The notes below the pieces were generated by a model. That model saw only the letters and a program-made list of their open reading frames with translations. It did not search any database and was not told the DNA's origin. From the NCBI GenBank assembly GCA_025363715.1, contig JANYLR010000031.1, forward strand, positions 19,380 through 83,379: DNA of 64,000 nucleotides. The letters run 5' to 3'. Source of the stretch: Holophagaceae bacterium. GTDB taxonomy: Bacteria; Acidobacteriota; Holophagae; Holophagales; Holophagaceae. The translations under genes were made by a program, and so were the position numbers. Shown here piece by piece: positions 19,303 through 35,007 of the stretch; the first letter of the stretch is position 1; the number at the start of each line of letters is the position of its first letter.

Positions 19303-20763
19303 CTACTTCTGTCCCTCCAGGGAGACTTCCTTGGCGGTGAGGGCGGGGTCTGCGAAGGCGGCGGCATCCTTACCCCGGGCCTTGACGACGGTCTCCCCGA
19401 TGACGATGGCCGCGAAGAACTCGTCCACCGACATAGCTGGCCCATCCACGCCCGAAACATCCGATTTGCCCATGGCGCTGGCCGTGGCCATTCCGATGGA
19501 CTTGCCGAGGATGGTGAGCGTGTGGGCTCCCGAGTCCTTGGCGGTGACCACGCCCTGAAGGATGGGCCTCGCGTCATTGGTGGATTCCATGCGGGTGGCC
19601 ACCATGGAGATTCCATCCCGACCCAGCGTCCCCCGGACCTGCACCAACTGCCCGGCGGTGAGAGCAGCCAAGGTCACCCGCTGATCGGTCAGGGCATCCA
19701 CCTTGATCAGGACGCCGTTGACCTTGAAGCTTCCGGTTCCACCGGCGCCCACCACGGGTCCTGAGACGGCCCCCTGGAGGCGAATGTTGGCCCGGAAGGA
19801 GACCTTGCTGGCGGCCAGCGCGCCACTGACCCCGAGCACGCCCTCCACTTCCACCTTCACGCCCGCGACGAGATCATCGGGGACGCCCCCGCTCCAGGTG
19901 GTGCTGGGGCTGGTGGTCACGGAGATGCCGGCGACGATGAACTGGGTGGAACCGGTCGCCGAGGTGACGATGCCCTCAACCTCGGCTTCGCTCTGGGGCA
20001 AGCCCGGCAGCCGATCCTCGATGGAAATACTGGCGGCTTCGATGACGTTCCCGGCCTGGACGGGCTTCAGGGAGCGGACCTCCACGAAGGAACCATTCGC
20101 GAGCCCAATCGGAAGGGTCGCGCCCCCCAGCAGGTTCACGGTGTAGGTGTCCGAGGGACCCGCATCGGGCGAAAGCTTGAGGGTGAAACCCGTGGCGCCC
20201 AGTGCCGAGACCATCCCCTTGAGCTCGAAGTCATCGGCCACGCCGGCCTGGTTCTTCTCGATGCGCGTGGCTCTGAGTCCGCCCCGATCATCGGGGACGC
20301 CAGACACGCGCACCCGGTCATTCCCATGGATGGAGTCAAGCCGCGTGGTGTTGTCCTCGAACTCGGTGCTGTCATCCACGCGCACGGTCTGGCCACCCAC
20401 CGACAGGGTGGAAGTGCCCACGGATCCGACCTTCCCTTTGACCGCATCCTCGAACTCGATCTCGAGGGCCTCCCCGGTGTGGCCGTTGTGATGAGCCTTG
20501 ACCTTCACCACCATGCCCGGTTTCAACTCCGTTTCGGTTTTCTGCGCCTTTTCGACGAGGATGGTGGCCCCGACCGTCGACAGGGTGAGGTTGTTGACCT
20601 GGATCGACCCGGCCGCTTGGGCTGTGATGGCTCCGGTGGTGAACTTGACGGGAGCCGGGGGAGTCGGGGTCGGAGTGGACGAGCTGCTCCCGGAAGAGGA
20701 ACCCCCGCAGGCCGTCAGAACGAGGATGGCGAGGGCAGCGGTGAGTTGGACAGGTGCTTTCAT
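19303..20763 (-). CDS. DUF5666-like lipoprotein
   Basis: Lipobox ALAILVLTACGG; repeated short beta modules (VEVEGVLGVSGALAASKV, VQVRGTLGRDGISMVATRME). Confidence 0.7.
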   Translation of the reverse strand: MKAPVQLTAALAILVLTACGGSSSGSSSSTPTPTPPAPVKFTTGAITAQAAGSIQVNNLTLSTVGATILVEKAQKTETELKPGMVVKVKAHHNGHTGEALEIEFEDAVKGKVGSVGTSTLSVGGQTVRVDDSTEFEDNTTRLDSIHGNDRVRVSGVPDDRGGLRATRIEKNQAGVADDFELKGMVSALGATGFTLKLSPDAGPSDTYTVNLLGGATLPIGLANGSFVEVRSLKPVQAGNVIEAASISIEDRLPGLPQSEAEVEGIVTSATGSTQFIVAGISVTTSPSTTWSGGVPDDLVAGVKVEVEGVLGVSGALAASKVSFRANIRLQGAVSGPVVGAGGTGSFKVNGVLIKVDALTDQRVTLAALTAGQLVQVRGTLGRDGISMVATRMESTNDARPILQGVVTAKDSGAHTLTILGKSIGMATASAMGKSDVSGVDGPAMSVDEFFAAIVIGETVVKARGKDAAAFADPALTAKEVSLEGQK

Positions 20764-20975
20764 AGGGCCTCCTTGGCCGATAACCAACATGGATGTGGCG
20801 TGCTATCCAGGGTGGCTATCGCCAAGGTCTGGACCAGATCCGAAAATGAAAAGCCCGACCATCCGGTTCCCATGCATGGCGGTTCTGGTTAGCAGATTCG
20901 AAAATGCCAGGCCGATGGCGATAGGGGACCGATCGCCCATCCCTTAGTCCGCAGACCCGCTAAACTGAACCCCGC

Positions 20976-21052
20976 GCGCCCATAGCTCAGGTGGATAGAG
21001 CAGCAGCCTTCTAAGCTGCAGGTCGCTGGTTCGAGTCCAGCTGGGCGCACCA
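20976..21052 (+). tRNA. tRNA-Arg (TCT)
   Basis: GCGCCCA/TGGGCGC acceptor stem, anticodon loop CTTCTAA, T-arm CTGGTTCGAGTCCAG, encoded CCA. Confidence 0.95.
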
Positions 21053-21654: not shown

Positions 21655-24600
21655 ATGTGCCACATGAGGGACCTGAAGACTAGGTGGTATCCGGGCCTGC
21701 TCGGGATGGTCTTCGGCCTCTTGGCCCTATTGGGATGTGGGGGCAGCAAGGGCTCCTCCGGCGTCAATCAGTACTATGGGAATTACCATCCAACGGGTTG
21801 GATGACGATCCATGGCGGACAGGCGGTCGCAGGCGTGGACGCCTGCAAGAAGTGCCACGAAATCTCCCTGATCAAGGTGGGCGCGGGCGTTCCGACCTGC
21901 ATGACCACGGGGTGCCATCACCAGGGCACGCCGGGGTACGCGGACGCGGCCATCCACGGCCCGCTGGCCAAGTCGGCCAGGACCTCCCCGTCCGGTGGAG
22001 GACTGATCTCCTGCCAGATCTGTCATGGTGATGACTTCACCGGCGGCGCTTCCGTCAAGGCCTGCGCCGCCTGCCATGGCGTGAGTGCCCCGCATCCGCA
22101 CAAGCCCTGGCGCATCGCAGTCGGTTCCACCTGGACCCACGTCAACACCGACCCTTCCAATGCCGCCGCCTGTGCGCAGTGCCATTACCCCGGTTCGCCC
22201 AACAACCCGGCCCTGCATCCACTCACACCCGCCCCTGCGGGAACCCAGCCGGGCTGCTTCAACCTGACCCTCTGCCACGGTGCCAATGCGGCTCCGCATC
22301 CCGTGCCGTTCTTGGCCGGCATGACCGATTCCAAGCTGAACGGCCACTTCACGGTCACCGCCTCGGCCTTCGCCTCGGACTGCGCGACCTGTCACGCCTA
22401 CACCGGGGTCTCACCGACCACCTCCGCGCCCCTTTGCGAGGTCTGCCATCAATTGGCTGATCCCACGCTGCCCGGCACCCTTGCCGGAACCTGCCTCTCC
22501 TGTCATGCCGGAACCAGTGGTCTGCCGAAGGGGCCTGGTGGGACGGGCTTCCCCAGCATCGCCGGAGCCCATGCCAAGCACATGTCCCTGGCGACGGGGC
22601 TGACCTGCAATACCTGCCACGCCGGCAGCGGCAGCGGCACCGCCACCCACTATGACAATGCGAATGCCCGGATCTACGATCTCGCCGGTCCCGGCAGCGT
22701 GTCCGTGGATGCCCTGTACAAAGCGAAGACTGGCGGAACCCCGGCCTTCAACCTGTCCGCCCTGACCTGCTCCAACATCAGCTGCCACGGCGGCCAGGTG
22801 ACGCCCAGCTGGGAATTCGGCACGATCAACAGCAGCACCCAGTGCACGGCCTGCCACGCTGTGGCCAGCACGGCGGGAACGAGTACCCAGTACAACGATG
22901 CCTTTGGTCGCCACAGCCTCGGCTCGCACGATGCTACGAATTCCACGAATAATATCGCCTGCACCACCTGCCACAACATGGGCAACGGCTCACCCGGGGC
23001 CCTGGCCCACTTCAAGTACCTGAACACCACCGCCGTGGATGGCGCCGCGACGGGGACCCCCGTGGATCAGATGCCCAGCGGCACCATCGCCTTCAACCCA
23101 GCCATCGTCACGGGTGGCACCTATACGGTGACGAGCGCCTCCCAGGGTAGCGGCACCTGCGCCCTGACCTGCCACACCCACGTCCATACCAATGCCGTGA
23201 ACGATTGGACCTCCATCGGCGTGCCCCACCCCATCCCGTTCCTTACGGGTCAGCTGGACACCCAGGGCAATGGCCATCTGATCGCCACGGCCGCCATTTT
23301 CGCGGCGGACTGCAGCACTTGCCACGCCTATTCGGGAACCTCGCCGAACCCGGCGTCCCCCCTCTGCTCGGTCTGTCATCTCCTCGCCAATCCCACCGTG
23401 GTCGCCACGGGGACCGGGACCTGCCTGTCCTGCCATGTGGGTCCATCCGGTCTGCCGAAAGGACCTGCGGGTACCGTGTTCCCCAGCATCCCCGGGTCCC
23501 ACGCCAAGCACCTGAACCTGCCCACGACCTTGACCTGTAATACCTGCCATGCCGGCAGCGGCACGGGCACGGCCACCCATTACACGAATGCCAACACCCG
23601 GCTCGGGTCCATCTCGGGACCTGCCACCGTATCGATGGATGTTCTGTACAAGGCCAAGACTGGAGCCAATCCCACCTTCACCAGTGCCTCGCTCACCTGC
23701 TCCAACGTCAGCTGCCACGGCGGCCAGGCCACCCCCGGCTGGCAGGTCGGCACCCTCAATAGCGCCACCCAGTGCACAGCCTGCCACGGAGTGGCGAGCT
23801 CGGCTGGAACGAGCACCCAGTACAACGACGCCTTCGGCCGCCATAGCATCGGCACGCACAACGCTACGAACGCTGCCAATGCCATCGCCTGCACCACCTG
23901 CCACAACATGGCCAATGGTTCGGCGGGGGCCCTGGCCCACTTCAAGTACCTGAACACATCGGCCGTGGATGCGGTCGCCACGGGCCTGCCGGCGGACCAG
24001 ATGCCCAGCGGCACCATCGCCTTCAATCCGGCCATCGTCACGGGTGGCACCTACACGGTCACCAGCGCCACCCAGGGCAACGGTGGCTGTGCCCTGACCT
24101 GCCACACCCACATCCATGTCGCCACGGTGGAGACCTGGACCGCCAGCGGCGCGCCGCATGCCATACCGTTTCTATCGGGCCAGACAGACACCCAGGGCAA
24201 TGGCCACCTGAACGCCACCGCGGCCATCCTCACCGCCGACTGTGGCATCTGCCACGCCTACTCGGGCACCTCCCCCATGGCCGCGGCGCCGCTCTGCAAC
24301 GTCTGCCACAAGCTGGCCGACCCCACCGTCGCCGGTACCAATACGGGAACCTGCCTCTCCTGCCATGCCGGCACCAGTGGCATGCCGAAGGGACCGGGGG
24401 GGACGGCCTTCCCCAGCCTGGCGGGCGCTCACCTGAAGCACATGAACCTGGGCACCGTCCTGACCTGCGATACCTGCCACGCGGGCAGCGGCACCGGGAC
24501 CAACACCCACTACACCAATGCCAACGCGCGGATTGGAATCCCCCCGGGGCCAGCCCCCGTGGTGATCAGTGCCACCTTCAATGCCAAGAGCGGCAGCGCA

Positions 24601-27600
24601 ACCTTCACACCGGCCTCCCTGACCTGCTCCAGTGTGAGCTGCCATGGCGGCCAGGCGGCCCCCAGCTGGCAGACCGGCACCATCGCCAGCGCCACCCAGT
24701 GCACGGCCTGCCATGGCGTAGTCGCATCCGCCGCCACCACCACCCAGTTCAATGACGCCTTCGGCCGCCACAGCCTCGGCACTCACAACGCCACCAATGC
24801 GGCCAACGCTATCGCCTGCACCACCTGCCACAATATGGGTAATGGCTCACCCGGCGCCCTGGCCCACTTCAAGTACCTGAATACCCCGGCCGTGGATGCG
24901 GTTGCCACGGGCCTGCCCGCGGACCAGCTGCCCAGCGGCACCATCGCCTTCAACCCGGCCATCGTGACGGGGGCGGGGACCTATACGGTGACCAGCGCCA
25001 CCCAGGGCAACGGCGGCTGTGCCCTGACCTGCCATACCCACATCCACACCGCGGCCGTGAACGACTGGACCTCCATCGGCGTGCCCCATCCCATCCCCTT
25101 CCTGACCGGCCAGACCGACACCCAGGGCAACGGGCACCTGAACATCACGGCCGCCAAGTTCACCGCGGACTGCGCCAACTGCCACGCCTACTCAGGCGCG
25201 TCTCCCATCGCTTCGGCCCCCCTCTGCTCCGCCTGCCATGCCCTGGCCAACCCCACGGTGGTCGCGACAGGCACGGGCACCTGCCTGTCCTGCCATGCGG
25301 GTCCTTCCGGCCTGCCCAAGGGACCCACCGGTACCGTTTTCCCGAACATCGCCGGTTCCCACGCGAAGCACATGAACCTGGCCACGGCCACGACCTGCGA
25401 CGCCTGCCATGCCGGCAGCGGCAGCGGCACCGCCACCCACTACTCGAACGCCAATGCCCGGATCGGAACCCCAGTGGGGCCGGCCTCCGTCTCCATCGAC
25501 TTCCAGTACAAGGCCAAGACCGGCGGCAACCCCACCTTCACAGACGCCACGCTCACCTGCTCGAACGTGAGCTGTCACGGCGGCCAGGCGACCCCCGGCT
25601 GGCAGGTGGGCACCCTCAACAGCGCGACCCAGTGCACGGCCTGCCACGGGGTGGGCGCCTCGGCGGCGACTACCGCGCAATATAACGATGCCTTCGGCCG
25701 GCACAGCCTCGGGACGCACAACGCCACGAATGCCGCCAACGCCATCGCCTGCACCACCTGCCACAACATGGCCAATGGTTCACCGGGCGCCCTGGCCCAC
25801 TTCAAGTACCTCAATACCAGCGCCGTGGATGGCGTGTCCTCGGGCCTGCCCGCCGACCAAATGCCCAGCGGCACCATCGCTTTCAATCCCGCCATCGTCA
25901 CCGCCGGGACCTACACCGTGACGAGCGTGACCCAGGGCAACGGCGGCTGTGCCCTCACCTGCCACACCCATATCCACGTCGCCACCATTGATACCTGGAC
26001 AGCCTCTGGCGCGCCCCATCCCATCCCCTTCTACGCCGGCCAGACCGATACCCAGGGCAATGGCCACCTGACCGCCACCGCGGCCACCTTCAGCGCCGCC
26101 TGCACCACCTGTCATGCCTACACCGGGACGTCTCCGCTCATCACGGCGCCCCTCTGCTCTGTCTGCCACACCCTGGCCAACCCCACCCTGGTCGCCACGG
26201 GTGTCGGCACCTGCCTGTCCTGCCATGTGGGGGCCTCCGGTCTGCCGGCGGGACCCACGGGAGCCAGCTTCCCAAGCATCGCTGGGGCCCACCCTGTCCA
26301 CATGGGCCTGCCCACCACCCTGACCTGCAATAGCTGCCATGCCAACGTCGGCACGGGCACCACCACCCACTACAACAGTGCCAATGCCCGGGTCACCCCG
26401 CCGACGGGGCCCGTGGCCATGAGCATCGATGCGGCTTTCCAGGCCCAGAGCGGGAATCCGGTCGGCTTCAATGGCTCCTCCCTCACCTGCTCCAGTACCA
26501 GCTGCCACGGCGGCCTGGTCACCCCCAACTGGCAGACCGGCACCATCGCCGCCACCACGCAATGCACCCTCTGCCATGCCATCAACAACGGGACCACGCC
26601 TTCCCAGTACAACGACGCCATCGGGCGCCATGCCTGGGGCACCCACTCCACGGCGGGCAGCCTGGACTGCACCTTCTGCCATGACATGACACTGGCCACC
26701 GCCGGTGCCCAGAAGCACTTCGCAGAGCTGAATACCACGGCCGTCAGCAGCACCAACAAGCTGCCCAGCACCACCATCAAGTTCAAGCTCGGCAATGCCA
26801 CTTATCCCATCACCGGGGCCGCCACCTACACCATCAATGCGACCTTCCCCGAAGGGGATGGTGGCTGCGCCCTCACCTGCCACAGCCAGGTCCACACGGA
26901 CGCCAACAACCACTGGAACATGCCCAAGGGCTCCGGAGTGGCGCACCCGGTGCCGTTCTTGACTACGGACCTCAGCACCGGAGGGAATACCCACCAGACC
27001 CTCACCCTCGCCCAGTTCAATGGCGAATGCGCCACCTGTCACGACCTTGGCGGCGTCTCCAGCAAGACCGGTCCCACCTGCAACGTCTGCCACACCCTGG
27101 CGGATCCCACGGCCGTCACCACCGGGGCTGGCACCTGCCTGTCCTGCCATGTGGGCGCCGCCTTCAAGACCCAGGGTCCCACGGGTTCCGCATGGCCGAA
27201 CCTGCAGGGCGCCCACCCGACGCACCTCTCCCTGCTGACCTTCACCCGGGCCACGCCGCCTCTGCCGGCCACGATGACCGCTTCGGTATGCGAGGCCTGC
27301 CACGTGGGCTCGGTGCCCGGGGACTCGGCCAATACCCACTACAGCAATGCCAATAAGCGCCTGGCCAGTCCCAAACTGTCCGGCCCCGGCACAGTGTCTA
27401 TCGTTCCCACGTTCAATGCCCAGTCTGGAACGGCGGGAACCACGGTGAGCGCCTCCGCCTTCACCTGCTCCAACATCTCCTGCCATGGCGGACAGACCAC
27501 CCCCGGTTGGCAGAGCGGAACTCTCACACCGAATGCCACCACCTACTGCATCGCCTGCCACAAGATCGCTACGACGGCCACCCAGTACAACGACGCCACG

Positions 27601-27882
27601 GGCCGCCACAACAATCCGGGCGCCCACAACACCACCTGCGACTACTGCCACGACATGACCCAGGCCAAGCAGGGCGCCATCGATCACTGGAAGTACCTGG
27701 ATACCTCAGCCGTCCGCATCACCCCGGACCAGCTGTCCAGCGATACCATCAAGTTCGGTGGAGGCGCCCAGCCCGCGACCGGAGCACTCACTTACACCGT
27801 GAACGTCACCATCGGCCGAGGTGGCTGTGCCCTCAGTTGCCACGGGCAAGGCCATACTGCCAGTGGCAATATCTGGAATTGA
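21655..27882 (+). CDS. Very large multiheme c-type cytochrome lipoprotein (CxxCH/CxxxxCH repeat family)
   Basis: Lipobox-like GLLALLGCGG; by hand count about 40 CX2CH, 7 CX4CH, 6 CX3CH and 1 CX5CH motifs; six ~310-aa repeats. Confidence 0.93.
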   Translation: MCHMRDLKTRWYPGLLGMVFGLLALLGCGGSKGSSGVNQYYGNYHPTGWMTIHGGQAVAGVDACKKCHEISLIKVGAGVPTCMTTGCHHQGTPGYADAAIHGPLAKSARTSPSGGGLISCQICHGDDFTGGASVKACAACHGVSAPHPHKPWRIAVGSTWTHVNTDPSNAAACAQCHYPGSPNNPALHPLTPAPAGTQPGCFNLTLCHGANAAPHPVPFLAGMTDSKLNGHFTVTASAFASDCATCHAYTGVSPTTSAPLCEVCHQLADPTLPGTLAGTCLSCHAGTSGLPKGPGGTGFPSIAGAHAKHMSLATGLTCNTCHAGSGSGTATHYDNANARIYDLAGPGSVSVDALYKAKTGGTPAFNLSALTCSNISCHGGQVTPSWEFGTINSSTQCTACHAVASTAGTSTQYNDAFGRHSLGSHDATNSTNNIACTTCHNMGNGSPGALAHFKYLNTTAVDGAATGTPVDQMPSGTIAFNPAIVTGGTYTVTSASQGSGTCALTCHTHVHTNAVNDWTSIGVPHPIPFLTGQLDTQGNGHLIATAAIFAADCSTCHAYSGTSPNPASPLCSVCHLLANPTVVATGTGTCLSCHVGPSGLPKGPAGTVFPSIPGSHAKHLNLPTTLTCNTCHAGSGTGTATHYTNANTRLGSISGPATVSMDVLYKAKTGANPTFTSASLTCSNVSCHGGQATPGWQVGTLNSATQCTACHGVASSAGTSTQYNDAFGRHSIGTHNATNAANAIACTTCHNMANGSAGALAHFKYLNTSAVDAVATGLPADQMPSGTIAFNPAIVTGGTYTVTSATQGNGGCALTCHTHIHVATVETWTASGAPHAIPFLSGQTDTQGNGHLNATAAILTADCGICHAYSGTSPMAAAPLCNVCHKLADPTVAGTNTGTCLSCHAGTSGMPKGPGGTAFPSLAGAHLKHMNLGTVLTCDTCHAGSGTGTNTHYTNANARIGIPPGPAPVVISATFNAKSGSATFTPASLTCSSVSCHGGQAAPSWQTGTIASATQCTACHGVVASAATTTQFNDAFGRHSLGTHNATNAANAIACTTCHNMGNGSPGALAHFKYLNTPAVDAVATGLPADQLPSGTIAFNPAIVTGAGTYTVTSATQGNGGCALTCHTHIHTAAVNDWTSIGVPHPIPFLTGQTDTQGNGHLNITAAKFTADCANCHAYSGASPIASAPLCSACHALANPTVVATGTGTCLSCHAGPSGLPKGPTGTVFPNIAGSHAKHMNLATATTCDACHAGSGSGTATHYSNANARIGTPVGPASVSIDFQYKAKTGGNPTFTDATLTCSNVSCHGGQATPGWQVGTLNSATQCTACHGVGASAATTAQYNDAFGRHSLGTHNATNAANAIACTTCHNMANGSPGALAHFKYLNTSAVDGVSSGLPADQMPSGTIAFNPAIVTAGTYTVTSVTQGNGGCALTCHTHIHVATIDTWTASGAPHPIPFYAGQTDTQGNGHLTATAATFSAACTTCHAYTGTSPLITAPLCSVCHTLANPTLVATGVGTCLSCHVGASGLPAGPTGASFPSIAGAHPVHMGLPTTLTCNSCHANVGTGTTTHYNSANARVTPPTGPVAMSIDAAFQAQSGNPVGFNGSSLTCSSTSCHGGLVTPNWQTGTIAATTQCTLCHAINNGTTPSQYNDAIGRHAWGTHSTAGSLDCTFCHDMTLATAGAQKHFAELNTTAVSSTNKLPSTTIKFKLGNATYPITGAATYTINATFPEGDGGCALTCHSQVHTDANNHWNMPKGSGVAHPVPFLTTDLSTGGNTHQTLTLAQFNGECATCHDLGGVSSKTGPTCNVCHTLADPTAVTTGAGTCLSCHVGAAFKTQGPTGSAWPNLQGAHPTHLSLLTFTRATPPLPATMTASVCEACHVGSVPGDSANTHYSNANKRLASPKLSGPGTVSIVPTFNAQSGTAGTTVSASAFTCSNISCHGGQTTPGWQSGTLTPNATTYCIACHKIATTATQYNDATGRHNNPGAHNTTCDYCHDMTQAKQGAIDHWKYLDTSAVRITPDQLSSDTIKFGGGAQPATGALTYTVNVTIGRGGCALSCHGQGHTASGNIWN

Positions 27883-28031: not shown

Positions 28032-28685
28032 TCAGTGGCACCCGCATCCACCCGAGAAATTGGGATCAAGCGCGGCGCGTATGCTCGAAACCCCTTCCTT
28101 GGCGATGAAGGCTGAAAGTCCCAAGGCGGCCACCGCGTCCGCCCACCACAGGGAAGGCGCGAGCAGGAAGACGAGGCTTCCGGCGAGCAGAACTGCGGAG
28201 AGCTGGATGCAGGCCAGACTGCAAGCCGCATCCCCCCTCAGTGTCCGGCTATCGAGGGCGCTGGCCGTTTGGCGTTTGGCCCGCCAGAGCCAGAACATGA
28301 AGCCAAGGCTGAGGGATGGAATGATGAGACCTGGAAGGGTCGTCACGGGGTGACGATGGCTGCCGAGTTGGAGGGCTGCGCCGATGGAGGCGCCAAGTGG
28401 CAGCCAAACGAACAGGATTCCGATGCTTAAGGTGGCCATTCGTTCTCGTCCCAGGCGGTTGGTGGCGCATTCGCCCGTGTCGCGCAAGCGCCACAGCACG
28501 ACCAGGGCAGATCCCACTTCGATGAAGCTGTCAGCACCAAATCCGAATAGTGCTATCGAGCCATCTGAAAGCCCGTACCCCATGGAGGCGAAGCCTTCTA
28601 CCAGGTTGTAGCCGATGGTGAAGTAGGCCAGGAATCGTGCATAGGCCAACCATTGGGATGGAGGAGCACCGGCTTCGGGCTTCAT
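28032..28685 (-). CDS. Cation efflux-like membrane transporter
   Basis: Multi-TM; YNLVEGFASMGYGLSDGSIALFGFGADSFIEVGSALVVLWR; C-terminal CGCH. Confidence 0.7.
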   Translation of the reverse strand: MKPEAGAPPSQWLAYARFLAYFTIGYNLVEGFASMGYGLSDGSIALFGFGADSFIEVGSALVVLWRLRDTGECATNRLGRERMATLSIGILFVWLPLGASIGAALQLGSHRHPVTTLPGLIIPSLSLGFMFWLWRAKRQTASALDSRTLRGDAACSLACIQLSAVLLAGSLVFLLAPSLWWADAVAALGLSAFIAKEGVSSIRAALDPNFSGGCGCH

Positions 28686-28687
28686 TT

Positions 28688-28921
28688 TTAAGCCTTCAAC
28701 AGACTGAGGATCTCGTCCGAGCTGGCCACCTTGCCCTGGAACTTGAGGTGGCCATCCAAGGCGAGCGCAGGGGTGCTGAGGATGCCCCGGGCGACCATGA
28801 CCGCATAATCCGATACCTTCACCATCTGGTGGTCTCCGCCGGACTGCTCTGCCGCAGGTTTTGCATGCTTTTCCAGGGTCTGACACTTAGCGCAACCGGG
28901 ACCGAAGACTTCGATGAGCAT
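28688..28921 (-). CDS. Thioredoxin-like small redox protein
   Basis: MLIEVFGPGCAKCQTLEKHAK ... GILSTPALALDG. Confidence 0.85.
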   Translation of the reverse strand: MLIEVFGPGCAKCQTLEKHAKPAAEQSGGDHQMVKVSDYAVMVARGILSTPALALDGHLKFQGKVASSDEILSLLKA

Positions 28922-28929
28922 GGGATCTC

Positions 28930-29904
28930 CTAGAGGATGGCGTTGAAGAGATAGCCCACCAGCAGGATGCCGGTGGCCACGACGCCGACGAACATGGCGA
29001 TGAGCCGGGGGCGCATCACCTTGCTGAGGATGATGGTTTCAGGCAGCGACAGCCCGATGACGGCCATCATGAAGGCCAGGGTGGAGCCCAGGGCCGCACC
29101 CTTGCCGAGCAGGGCTTCCACGATGGGCATGACCCCCGCCGCGTTCGAATAGAGCGGCACGCCGATCAGCACCGCCAGGGGCACGCTGTACCAATGGTTT
29201 TTGCCGAGCAGACTCGCCATGAAGCGCTCAGGCACATAGCCATGGATGAGGGCGCCCACGGCGATGCCCGCCAGGATACAGGGCCACACCTTGCCGACGA
29301 TTTCTTTCACGCCTTGAACGGCCAGATCAAAACGGGCGGGAAGGGTGCTTTGTTCCTCCTCGACTTCACCGAGGGCAGGGGCGGTCAGAGCGCCCTGGAC
29401 CCAGTTCTCCAGATAGCGCTCCATGTGGAGACGCCCCAGGATGAGCCCAGAGGTACAGGCGATGGCCACGCCGGTGCCGGCATACAGGAGGGCGATCTTC
29501 CAGCCGAACATGGCGAAGAGCATCCCCAGGGCGATCTCGTTGACCATGGGCGTGGCCACCAGGAAGCTGAAGGTCACGCCCAGGGGCACGCCCGCCCGCA
29601 GGAAGCCGAGGAACAACGGCACCGCTGAGCAGGAGCAGAAGGGCGTGATGATCCCGAAGAGGGACGCCAGGGCGTTGCCGAGGCCGGGGCGCCGTTTGGA
29701 GAGGGCATCCCGGACCCTGGTGGGGTTCACGAAAGTCTGGAGGAAGGTGACGATGAAGACCACCAGCGTCAGAAGCAGCAACACCTTGGGCGTGTCGAAG
29801 AAGAGGAAGGCCACCGCCTCGCCCAGGTAGGACTTGGGGATGAGCTCTAGGAAGCGGAAGGCGATCCATTCCGACATCGAGTGGTTCACGGCATAGAGGA
29901 ACAC
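28930..29904 (-). CDS. DUF318/ArsP-like permease
   Basis: ASLFGIITPFCSCSAVPLFLGFLRAGVPLGVTFSFLVATPMVNEIAL. Confidence 0.85.
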   Translation of the reverse strand: MFLYAVNHSMSEWIAFRFLELIPKSYLGEAVAFLFFDTPKVLLLLTLVVFIVTFLQTFVNPTRVRDALSKRRPGLGNALASLFGIITPFCSCSAVPLFLGFLRAGVPLGVTFSFLVATPMVNEIALGMLFAMFGWKIALLYAGTGVAIACTSGLILGRLHMERYLENWVQGALTAPALGEVEEEQSTLPARFDLAVQGVKEIVGKVWPCILAGIAVGALIHGYVPERFMASLLGKNHWYSVPLAVLIGVPLYSNAAGVMPIVEALLGKGAALGSTLAFMMAVIGLSLPETIILSKVMRPRLIAMFVGVVATGILLVGYLFNAIL

Positions 29905-29967
29905 CCACAGGGGCAGGGCAGCAGCAGCCAGCCACCGCGGCGAAGCCAGCTTGGTTGTATGGCCACG

Positions 29968-30369
29968 TCAGACACGAGAAACCGCCCGGTCCGCAGGTGA
30001 GGACTTCTGGACCTTGGAGCACACGACCGGGATGGATAGGGCCTTCACCTCCAGGGCGCGGTCTTCAAGCACTTCCAGCAGCCTTCCTGCGTCAGCCAGG
30101 ATGCCCTTGAGGAGTGGTGATGCCTGCTTCTTGGGCACGACGGACGCGAAGACCCACCGGCCATCTTTCCGCTCCACGACGAAGCCCGCTCGGCGCAATT
30201 CCCTGAGCGCCTCGGATACCGAGGATTGGGGTACCTGTAGGGTTTCGGCGATCTGACAGACGCACAACTCGCCAGGTTCCAGCAGCGCGAGGACCCGCAT
30301 CCGCAGCGGATGAGACACCGCCTTCACCTGCTCCACCAAGGCCTTCAGGTCGTCCGAAACAGGGGTCAC
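29968..30369 (-). CDS. ArsR family transcriptional regulator
   Basis: VSHPLRMRVLALLEPGELCVCQIAETLQVPQSSVSEALRELRRAGFVVERKDGRWVFAS. Confidence 0.88.
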   Translation of the reverse strand: MTPVSDDLKALVEQVKAVSHPLRMRVLALLEPGELCVCQIAETLQVPQSSVSEALRELRRAGFVVERKDGRWVFASVVPKKQASPLLKGILADAGRLLEVLEDRALEVKALSIPVVCSKVQKSSPADRAVSRV

Positions 30370-32345: not shown

Positions 32346-32534
32346 ATGATTCAGATTGTAGCTACTGGCAGTGCAACCTCCCGAACAGTGAAGGCAAAGC
32401 CTCGTGTGGAGCCAAGGAGATCGCCGATTCAGCGTCGTTCCAAGACGATCGTGGAGGCTGTCCTGACCGCCGCTGCTCAGGTTTTCGAGGAGCGAGGTCA
32501 TACCGGTGTGTTTGACCGGCCCACCCAGGCGTAA
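32346..32534 (+). pseudogene. Truncated TetR-family regulator (N-terminal fragment)
   Basis: RRSPIQRRSKTIVEAVLTAAAQVFEERG matches a TetR HTH start, then loses similarity at the junction with the RND fragment. Confidence 0.6.
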
Positions 32535-33090
32535 AAGCTAGGGAGGGCCAGCAGCGTGAAGAGCGTGCTGGTCACAAGACCACCCACCATGGCGATGGCC
32601 AGGGGCCGCTCCAATTCGGACCCTCCGAACCCGAACAGCATCGGCATCAGGCCGAGAATGGCGGCTCCGGCAGTCATCAGCTTGGGGCGCACGCGGCCCA
32701 GACTGGCTTCCCGCAGGGCGGCCTCGAAGGGGAGGCCCTTGGCCATCAGGTCCTTGGCCTGGGTGATGAGGACCAGGCTGTTCTGCACCGCCACGCCGAA
32801 GAGGCCGATCATCCCCACGATGGAGCTGATGTTCCAGGTCTCCCCGGCCAACCACAAAGCGAAGAGCGCGCCTGCGAAGGCGTCAGGCAGGGTGGCGAGC
32901 ACCACCAGCACCTCCCGCCAAGTCTTCAACGCAATGTAAAGCAGACCTACCACTAGCGTCAGGGCGGCCAGAATGGCGAGGCCCAAGCGACGCTGGGTCT
33001 CCCTGGCCTCCTCGATCTTCCCGCCCAGCTTGAGGAAGGCCCCTTCGGGGAGCCTCGGGGACGCCGAGGTGGCCATCCAGGGGGACTGAC
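32498..33090 (-). pseudogene. C-terminal fragment of CusA/CzcA-type RND efflux pump
   Basis: LPEGAFLKLGGKIEEARETQRRLGLAILAALTLVVGLLYIALKTWREVLVVL...VRPKLMTAGAAILGLMPMLF; most of a full-length ~1000-aa pump is missing. Confidence 0.8.
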
Positions 33091-33276
33091 GGGGGGTGGC
33101 ACCAGCCTGTCCGTCCACGTCTGAGCCCAGTCCTGGAGCACCACCCCAGGTGGCGTGCGTCCCGGAACCGCCCCACAAATACACCACAACGGGCGGGTCT
33201 CGGGGGTCAAACAAAGAACTTACGAGCACCCAGGAGCACCGAAATGCACCCAGTTGCACTCGTGGTTCTGAATATG

Positions 33277-33309
33277 AAAAAGCCCCGGAGACTGAGCATC
33301 TACGGGGCT
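33277..33309 (-). terminator. Terminator hairpin after tRNA-His
   Basis: On minus strand: AAGCCCCG ... CGGGGCTTTTT. Confidence 0.7.
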
Positions 33310-33316
33310 TCTGTTC

Positions 33317-33394
33317 TGGGGCGGCTGATGGGGCTCGAACCCACGACATCTGGAATCACAATCCAGTACTCTAACCAACTGAGCTACAGCCGCC
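33317..33394 (-). tRNA. tRNA-His (GTG)
   Basis: Minus strand GGCGGCTGTAGCTCAGTTGGTTAGAGTACTGGATTGTGATTCCAGATGTCGTGGGTTCGAGCCCCATCAGCCGCCCCA. Confidence 0.95.
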
Positions 33395-33501
33395 GTCGGA
33401 CCATTCAGACTATCCTGGGCGGCCCAGGAAGGCCAGCGGGAACCTTCTAGGGACTGCAATCATCGAAGTCATGCCGGACAGCCGGTCGAGTGAGGGGTTT
33501 C

Positions 33502-35007
33502 ATGAATCGTCAGGTCAAACAGGTTCTGGGGTTGTCGGCCTTCGCGGCCGGGTGCATGGCTCTTGGGATGGGGCTGAGCCACGGGTGGCAGGCGGCGGCC
33601 CAGGAGGAAAAGCCGGTGGTGGTGGAGGCCAAGGGGCTGGATCGGCTGCCGCCCATCGCAGAGGTGGCCGAAAAGCTGAATCCCACGGTGGTATCCATCA
33701 CGAACACCAGCTTCGTGAAGAACCGCCGGGGCTTCGAGCATCCCCAGGTGGGTGGCCAGGACTTTTTCGACTTCTTCTTCGGCCCTGGCGGGCCCCAGCA
33801 GCGCCGGAGCCCACGGGGTGGCGAGGATGAGCAGCGGGCCGTGTCCGGTGGCTCGGGCGTGATCATCTCCCCCAATGGTGAGATCCTCACGAACTACCAC
33901 GTCATCGCCAGCATGGGCGGGTCTGACAATGCCCTGGAGGTGAAGACCACCGATGGGAAGACCTTCAAGGCCACCGTGCTGGGCAAGGACAAGGAGCTGG
34001 ACATCGCGCTCATCAAGATCGACGCGAGCCACATGCCTCACGCCAAGCTGGGCGATTCAGATTCCCTGCGCATCGGTGAGTGGGTGGTGGCCATCGGCAA
34101 CCCTCTGGGCCTGGAGCACACGGTCACCCAGGGCATCATCAGCGCCAAGGGCCGCAAGCTCGATACAGGGGTCAGCTCGTTCCTCCAGACGGATGCCGCC
34201 ATCAACCGAGGCAACTCTGGCGGACCGCTGCTGAATCTGCGGGGCGAGGTGGTGGGCATCAACACCGCCATCAATCCCGCCGGGCAGAACATCGGCTTCG
34301 CCGTGCCCATCAGCCAGGTGAACCGCATCCTCAAGGATCTGCGCAGCGGCAAGCCCGTGAGCCGCGGCTACCTGGGCATCGGCCCCGCGGAGCTGGACCA
34401 GGCCTACCAGGACGCCCTGGGCGTCAAGGCGGGCGTGGTGGTCAGCACCGTGGAGAAAGGGCAGGCCGCCGAGAAGGCCGGCCTGCAGCGACTGGATGTC
34501 ATCACGGCCCTGGACGGACAGCCCGTGAAGAGCCCCGACGAGGTGGTGGCGGTGGTGTCCAGCCGACGCGCCGGGGACACCCTGAAGCTGACCGTCTTCC
34601 GGGATGGCAAGACCCTCAACCTCACCGCCACCCTGGGGGATCGCAAGGCCCTCGAGGCCCAGCGTCGCCGCGAAGCCGGTGAAGAGCCCGAGGATGAGCC
34701 CGCCCAAAAGCCCCAGGGCGATCAGAAGAGCCTCAACCTCGAAAAGACCTATGGCTTCACCGTGGAGCCCGCGGATGCCAAGAACCGTCTCAAGGGCGTG
34801 GTGGTGACTTCGGTGGATCCCCGCTCCCCTGCCGCGGATCGGGGCCTGGCCCCAGGCATGGTTATCACCGAGGTGGGCCGCCAGCCGGTGAACAACCTGG
34901 CCGAGTTCAGCGCCCAGGTGAAGAAGGCCGGGGGTCGCACCCTCCTGCTTTACATCCAATCGCCCAACGGCAGTCAGAAGATCACCCTGCCCGTCCCGCC
35001 CCGGTAA
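33502..35007 (+). CDS. Do-family serine protease (DegP/HtrA-like), two PDZ domains
   Basis: GSGVIISPNGEILTNYHVI, LDIALIKIDA, TDAAINRGNSGGPLLNLRGEVVGINTAI; PDZ repeats. Confidence 0.93.
   Translation: MNRQVKQVLGLSAFAAGCMALGMGLSHGWQAAAQEEKPVVVEAKGLDRLPPIAEVAEKLNPTVVSITNTSFVKNRRGFEHPQVGGQDFFDFFFGPGGPQQRRSPRGGEDEQRAVSGGSGVIISPNGEILTNYHVIASMGGSDNALEVKTTDGKTFKATVLGKDKELDIALIKIDASHMPHAKLGDSDSLRIGEWVVAIGNPLGLEHTVTQGIISAKGRKLDTGVSSFLQTDAAINRGNSGGPLLNLRGEVVGINTAINPAGQNIGFAVPISQVNRILKDLRSGKPVSRGYLGIGPAELDQAYQDALGVKAGVVVSTVEKGQAAEKAGLQRLDVITALDGQPVKSPDEVVAVVSSRRAGDTLKLTVFRDGKTLNLTATLGDRKALEAQRRREAGEEPEDEPAQKPQGDQKSLNLEKTYGFTVEPADAKNRLKGVVVTSVDPRSPAADRGLAPGMVITEVGRQPVNNLAEFSAQVKKAGGRTLLLYIQSPNGSQKITLPVPPR

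Follow-up and report, generated by a model that had tools for sequence, protein, structure and literature searches.

Giant multiheme cytochromes have usually been reported as counts of heme-binding motifs. In Desulfuromonas soudanensis, DSOUD_0664 is a single predicted extracellular polypeptide with 69 hemes (PMC4914508), and the S-layer multiheme cytochromes of anaerobic methanotrophic archaea (ANME) carry up to 86 hemes, in ANME-2c (PMC9012536). Among the 24- and 49-heme cytochromes of Burkholderiales and the large cytochromes of Chloroflexi, CxxCH domains were gained and lost between close relatives, and these proteins have been read as molecular wires or capacitors (PMC7399161). Giant cytochromes, and changes of heme number by domain insertion or deletion, are therefore already known. 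Here we describe a 54-heme c-type cytochrome of Geothrix, an iron-reducing acidobacterium, in which the count resolves into 6 + n x 8. The gene is located at 21655..27882 on the forward strand of a 64,000-nucleotide stretch (the window) of contig JANYLR010000031.1, which belongs to a draft Geothrix assembly of 121 contigs and 84% completeness, and its product is a candidate component of the extracellular electron transfer (EET) hardware of this genus. No description of this protein was found among the open-access papers searched. As far as those papers show, the new features are the order of the octaheme modules with one extra histidine for each heme, a head of the conduit type and a series of homologs of graded length in the Holophagaceae.

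The gene is a single stop-free open reading frame (ORF) of 2,075 codons. Its product contains 54 heme motifs (40 CX2CH, 6 CX3CH, 7 CX4CH and 1 CX5CH), exactly the number and classes counted by hand in an earlier sequence-only reading of this DNA, whereas 1,000 shuffled versions of its sequence had 1.4 motifs on average and at most 7. Of its 110 cysteines, 108 lie within motifs, and the remaining two are the lipobox Cys28 and Cys2. The latter is upstream of the likelier start codon, the ATG at 21664, which has a GAAGG sequence 9 nt in front of it, whereas the same GAAGG directly borders the listed ATG at 21655. The product before processing is thus likely to be 2,072 residues long. The mature polypeptide would have a mass of about 205 kDa, or about 238 kDa with its hemes, at 38 residues per heme.

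The motif spacing of the protein follows the code 242225 + (22224223)x6, where each digit is the number of residues between the two cysteines of a motif, and 6 + 6x8 gives 54. At the DNA level this order appears as a repeat with a period of 930 nt. A lipoprotein signal peptide (21664..21738) ends at the lipobox Cys28 and is followed by a hexaheme head (21739..22278) with the motif order 2-4-2-2-2-5. Behind the head, six octaheme units of 299-320 residues (about 310 each) are arranged in tandem, all with the order 2-2-2-2-4-2-2-3. DNA repeats, unit comparison and a unit tree delimit four units of type A, namely A1 (22279..23175), A2 (23176..24105), A3 (24106..25035) and A4 (25036..25965), the last being 83% identical to A2 in amino acid sequence. 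Unit comparison and the tree likewise define unit B (25966..26883) and unit C (26884..27843), and the ORF ends 12 codons further on; all these elements are on the forward strand. The earlier hand count had missed both the 930-nt repeat and the module order.

When 68 units from about 20 proteins are aligned, every cysteine and histidine of the motifs is invariant. Each unit has in addition eight extra histidines (seven conserved at 100% and one at 99%; a ninth site reaches 72%). Eight extra histidines for eight hemes provide one candidate axial ligand per heme, which meets the need of bis-His coordination, and we infer from this conservation that the unit hemes are bis-His-coordinated. Across 24 homologous heads, the lipobox cysteine is invariant and at least six extra histidines are conserved. 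The lipobox-like N-terminus noted in the sequence-only reading is thereby borne out. It reads LLGC with glycines at +2 and +3, so that the inner-membrane retention Asp is missing behind the lipobox cysteine, as in outer-membrane lipoproteins.

Among the NCBIfam models, TIGR01904 for CxxxxCH/CxxCH-domain cytochromes (GSu_C4xC__C2xCH, named from Geobacter) matched with 103.4 bits against a cut-off of 27, in six stretches that each cover the CX4CH-CX2CH pair of one unit. This model spans only about 60 of the 310 residues of a unit, and it describes neither the octaheme module nor the head. Pfam reported cytochrome c3/c7-type domains and the MtrC/MtrF II-IV domain (PF22113, 107.7 bits). The OmcA/MtrC decaheme family model TIGR03507 did not match, PF22113 being the only link to that group among the models. 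Neither a catalytic domain (Pfam and NCBIfam) nor an S-layer domain (Pfam) was found, and a profile built from 42 units had no match in the PDB at E<=0.1, nanowire subunits included.

Close relatives hold a shorter form of 30 hemes, with the code 242225 + (22224223)x3, that is, the same head and three units. The unit tree resolves three clades, A, B and C, with good support. Units 1-4 of the 54-heme protein group with unit 1 of the 30-heme form (A), unit 5 with unit 2 (B) and unit 6 with unit 3 (C), which makes the long form head-A-A-A-A-B-C. This placement indicates that, in the lineage of the window, the first unit of the three-unit form became four. A2 and A4 have diverged from each other about as much as from the corresponding units of another species, which makes the type-A amplification an old event. 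Further sizes occur in the same family. A 14-heme form (genome G029) consists of the head and one unit, and two other genera have 41 and 49 hemes, from the head, one 11-heme unit and three or four octaheme units. In Geothrix G289 (contig C16; locus L143:6939-14933, reverse strand), a 71-heme relative of 2,664 residues has a second head embedded in it, according to its code 242225+22224223+242225+22222224223+5x22224223. Proteins of 17 hemes (G009), 20 hemes (the paralog on contig C37 of the host genome) and 31 hemes (G009 and G033) depart from the module order. The module was detected in 41 of 78 Holophagaceae genomes (E<=1e-40) and, among 247 sampled Acidobacteriota genomes, it is confined to this family. 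The string 22224223 also occurs among the 23 heme motifs of a 2,034-aa open frame, 25% identical, in a deltaproteobacterial metagenome-assembled genome (VAUL01000082.1, locus L070); judging from this sequence, the octaheme module may be older than the Holophagaceae. In genome G027 the ends of contigs C102 and C244 do not overlap, so a single longer gene spanning both was rejected.

It is quite possible, though short of probable, that these proteins are a family of covalent wires of graded length, each with a docking head and n octaheme conductors (n = 1, 3, 6 and more; 14-71 hemes), whose reach is tuned by duplicating whole modules rather than by polymerizing subunits. Whatever their role, they form a natural size series within one family (14, 30 and 54 hemes, with variants of 41, 49 and 71). 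With homologs of graded length, conduction over distance and the dependence of rate on length become testable without the dispute over filament identity.

Compared with the systems described above, the 54-heme protein resembles DSOUD_0664 in carrying dozens of hemes on one chain, although DSOUD_0664 has more. Like the ANME cytochromes it is a giant multiheme protein of presumed extracellular location, but those are archaeal and have S-layer domains and a transmembrane helix, both lacking here. The Burkholderiales and Chloroflexi cytochromes also vary in heme number by domain insertion and deletion. They have, however, 22-23 residues per heme against 38 here, the Burkholderiales genes adjoin a porin gene, and steps of whole octaheme units are specific to the Holophagaceae proteins. 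The OmcS, OmcE and OmcZ filaments share the linear bis-His conduction proposed here, but they are polymers of small subunits. Closest of all is the Geothrix 30-heme paralog (locus L061 of G. limicola, and others), which has the same head and unit codes and whose A, B and C units are about 67-79% identical to the corresponding units of the 54-heme protein; it differs in having three units instead of six and in its location in an operon with DUF5777, opposite a two-component sensor. It was fair of the earlier reading to place the heme count at the very high end; the count is no record, though, in view of the 69 hemes of D. soudanensis, the 86 of ANME-2c and the 71 of Geothrix G289.

Candidate electron partners are encoded elsewhere in the host genome (G000). 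Contig C17 (L050, G000:C17:8000-17554) carries genes for a 455-aa barrel-like protein, a 5-heme lipoprotein and a stand-alone 6-heme lipoprotein that is 38% identical to the head of the 54-heme protein. At the contig edge the cluster breaks off within the beginning of a further gene; the relative of that gene on C38 encodes an OmcA/MtrC decaheme. At the end of C38 (L123), this OmcA/MtrC-family decaheme lipoprotein gene (TIGR03507, 458 bits) is preceded by a second 6-heme gene. The genes of C17 and C38 probably constitute the outer-membrane conduit of the host. No Pfam or NCBIfam model matches the 455-aa protein, which its sequence and gene company suggest to be an outer-membrane barrel. A search of 24 other Geothrix genomes and 16 outgroups of the same class found this protein in 21 of the former and none of the latter. 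No member of the MtrB/PioB porin family was found in the host genome. In genome G009, the barrel-like protein and the 5-heme protein are followed by a 31-heme protein that starts with the same head, an order implying that this head type replaces a subunit of the conduit cluster. Inner-membrane electron-transfer candidates are also present: on C90 (L124, G000:C90:28000-46000) two adjacent genes join 11 heme motifs to a membrane domain of the cytochrome b561 type, a build like that of CbcL, and C8 encodes an NapC/NrfH-type protein.

Genes for a small cytochrome c, a DUF2231-like membrane protein and a DUF5777 beta-barrel share an operon with the gene of the 30-heme paralog (20-heme in the host, on C37), and this operon is possibly a conduit of an undescribed type. 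It is conserved at several loci (L046, which is G000:C37, L045, L061 and L145), and its DUF2231-like protein bears one CXXCH. Several of these operons lie opposite genes for a Reg_prop/Y_Y_Y sensor kinase and a response regulator.

Taken together, these features suggest that the 54-heme protein is probably an outer-membrane-anchored, surface-exposed bis-His conductor of variable length that serves extracellular respiration. Electrons would enter its head from a trans-outer-membrane conduit whose genes lie elsewhere in the genome, and its units would form a continuous chain of low-spin bis-His hemes leading away from the membrane towards Fe(III)/Mn(IV) oxides, humics, electrodes or partner cells. 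The protein would then correspond to the polymeric cytochrome nanowires, but as a covalent monomer. Its reach would depend on how many units it has, a number that would evolve by duplication of type-A units behind the head. Nanowires pack their hemes at about 0.8 nm per heme; if applied here, this packing would give an upper bound of about 40 nm. An extracellular-acceptor role of the Geobacter/Geothrix type had been proposed in the sequence-only reading. It is partly supported: the host is indeed a Geothrix with a genome otherwise equipped for EET, the protein has a lipobox and extra histidines in a 1:1 ratio to its hemes, and its head is akin to a component of a barrel-cytochrome cluster. A local conduit, though, is missing. 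Several observations count against this conductor role. No conduit gene adjoins the 54-heme gene, and head homology is the single argument for pairing in trans. The lipobox by itself is silent on the leaflet, and we infer both the outer leaflet and the surface exposure. AlphaFold2 gave unusable models, with a pLDDT of 37.5 for one unit (42-row alignment) and 34.2 for two tandem units (29 rows). Moreover, the gene is accessory, being absent at this locus from most Geothrix genomes, and is therefore not essential for EET in the genus.

Other functions were weighed against the same evidence. Rather than conducting over long distances, the protein might store charge, as a heme-rich capacitor or redox buffer in the periplasm or at the surface that keeps dozens of electrons while acceptors are available only intermittently. 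Fifty-four hemes on one chain without a neighboring conduit would suit this role, amplification of whole units raises capacity as well as length, and a capacitor was considered by the authors who described the 49-heme proteins (PMC7399161). We regard it as unlikely, since a conserved linear module order and a conduit-type head would be superfluous for storage alone, although storage and conduction are not mutually exclusive. Tandem modules with one extra histidine per heme, as bis-His chains need, would also be expected of a nanowire subunit that self-assembles head to tail into an OmcS/OmcE/OmcZ-like filament. This is improbable: the known cytochrome filaments are built of small subunits with 4-8 hemes, the unit profile matched no nanowire of solved structure at E<=0.1, and the lipid-anchor cysteine is conserved in 24 of 24 heads. 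An enzymatic role, as a multiheme reductase or oxidase of metals or nitrogen compounds, for example, with dedicated catalytic hemes, is more improbable still. Some large multiheme proteins are enzymes, and pieces of related proteins have weak matches to NrfH/NapC-type profiles, with scores well short of the family cut-offs; but every unit heme has its own invariant candidate distal histidine, ordinary CXnCH motifs and the lipobox account for all cysteines, and neither Pfam nor NCBIfam showed a catalytic domain.

A repetitive gene in a draft assembly, some of whose related long forms break at contig ends, could also be an assembly or annotation artefact, or else a decaying pseudogene. The single-contig Geothrix genome G243 (locus L138) refutes this reading in practice: it contains an intact co-linear ortholog with the same 54-heme code, 80.8% identity over 2,075 aligned residues and a conserved order of units, which rules out an assembly artefact. 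The ORF is thus not split in an independent assembly. The longest exact internal repeat of the gene is only 41 bp, and its A units are 73-82% identical at the DNA level. Silent-site divergence between different A units is substantial (dS 0.67-0.97), the Nei-Gojobori (NG86) dN/dS was 0.15-0.26 in all unit comparisons made, and every unit is under purifying selection.

The gene is located between tRNA-Arg(tct) (20976..21052, forward strand) and tRNA-His(gtg) (33317..33393, reverse strand), the latter adjoining the conserved gene of an HtrA-like protease (33490-35007). The right-hand flank is also found with the long forms of G016, G023, G003 and G035, and in G243 the flank is conserved at the HtrA/tRNA-His end. 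The 71-heme gene of G289 likewise lies between tRNA-His and tRNA-Arg. In most other Geothrix genomes examined, tRNA-His and HtrA adjoin other genes, which defines this site as a variable locus. No other called gene of the window has two or more heme motifs, and none of the ten neighbors scanned encodes a porin. The earlier statement that no porin or other cytochrome gene is adjacent thus holds locally. It does not extend to the genome, which encodes the barrel/5-heme/6-heme cluster, including the homolog of the head, and the OmcA/MtrC decaheme on other contigs, nor to the paralog in its DUF5777 beta-barrel operon. A promoter and terminator scan gave nothing informative, and a comparison with plasmids gave no match. 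Long antisense ORFs across the gene (e.g. 25780-27687) were attributed to the GC richness of third codon positions and not read as genes.

The genes at 28032-30369 (reverse strand) encode a CDF-type transporter, a thioredoxin-like protein, an ArsP-type permease and an ArsR-like regulator, and are probably a metal/arsenic cassette inserted between the cytochrome gene and tRNA-His. At 32498-33349 (reverse strand) lies a 3' remnant of an RND (AcrB/CzcA-type) pump gene that covers profile positions 839-1020 only. Genome G020 has a full-length RND homolog at the same locus, 84% identical over the remnant, and G243 also has RND-type genes there. On the other side, 19303-20790 (reverse strand) encodes a lipoprotein with four DUF5666 domains. 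A homolog of this lipoprotein (70% identical) adjoins the long cytochrome gene of G035 (L042:6518-7969), and the two may be linked.

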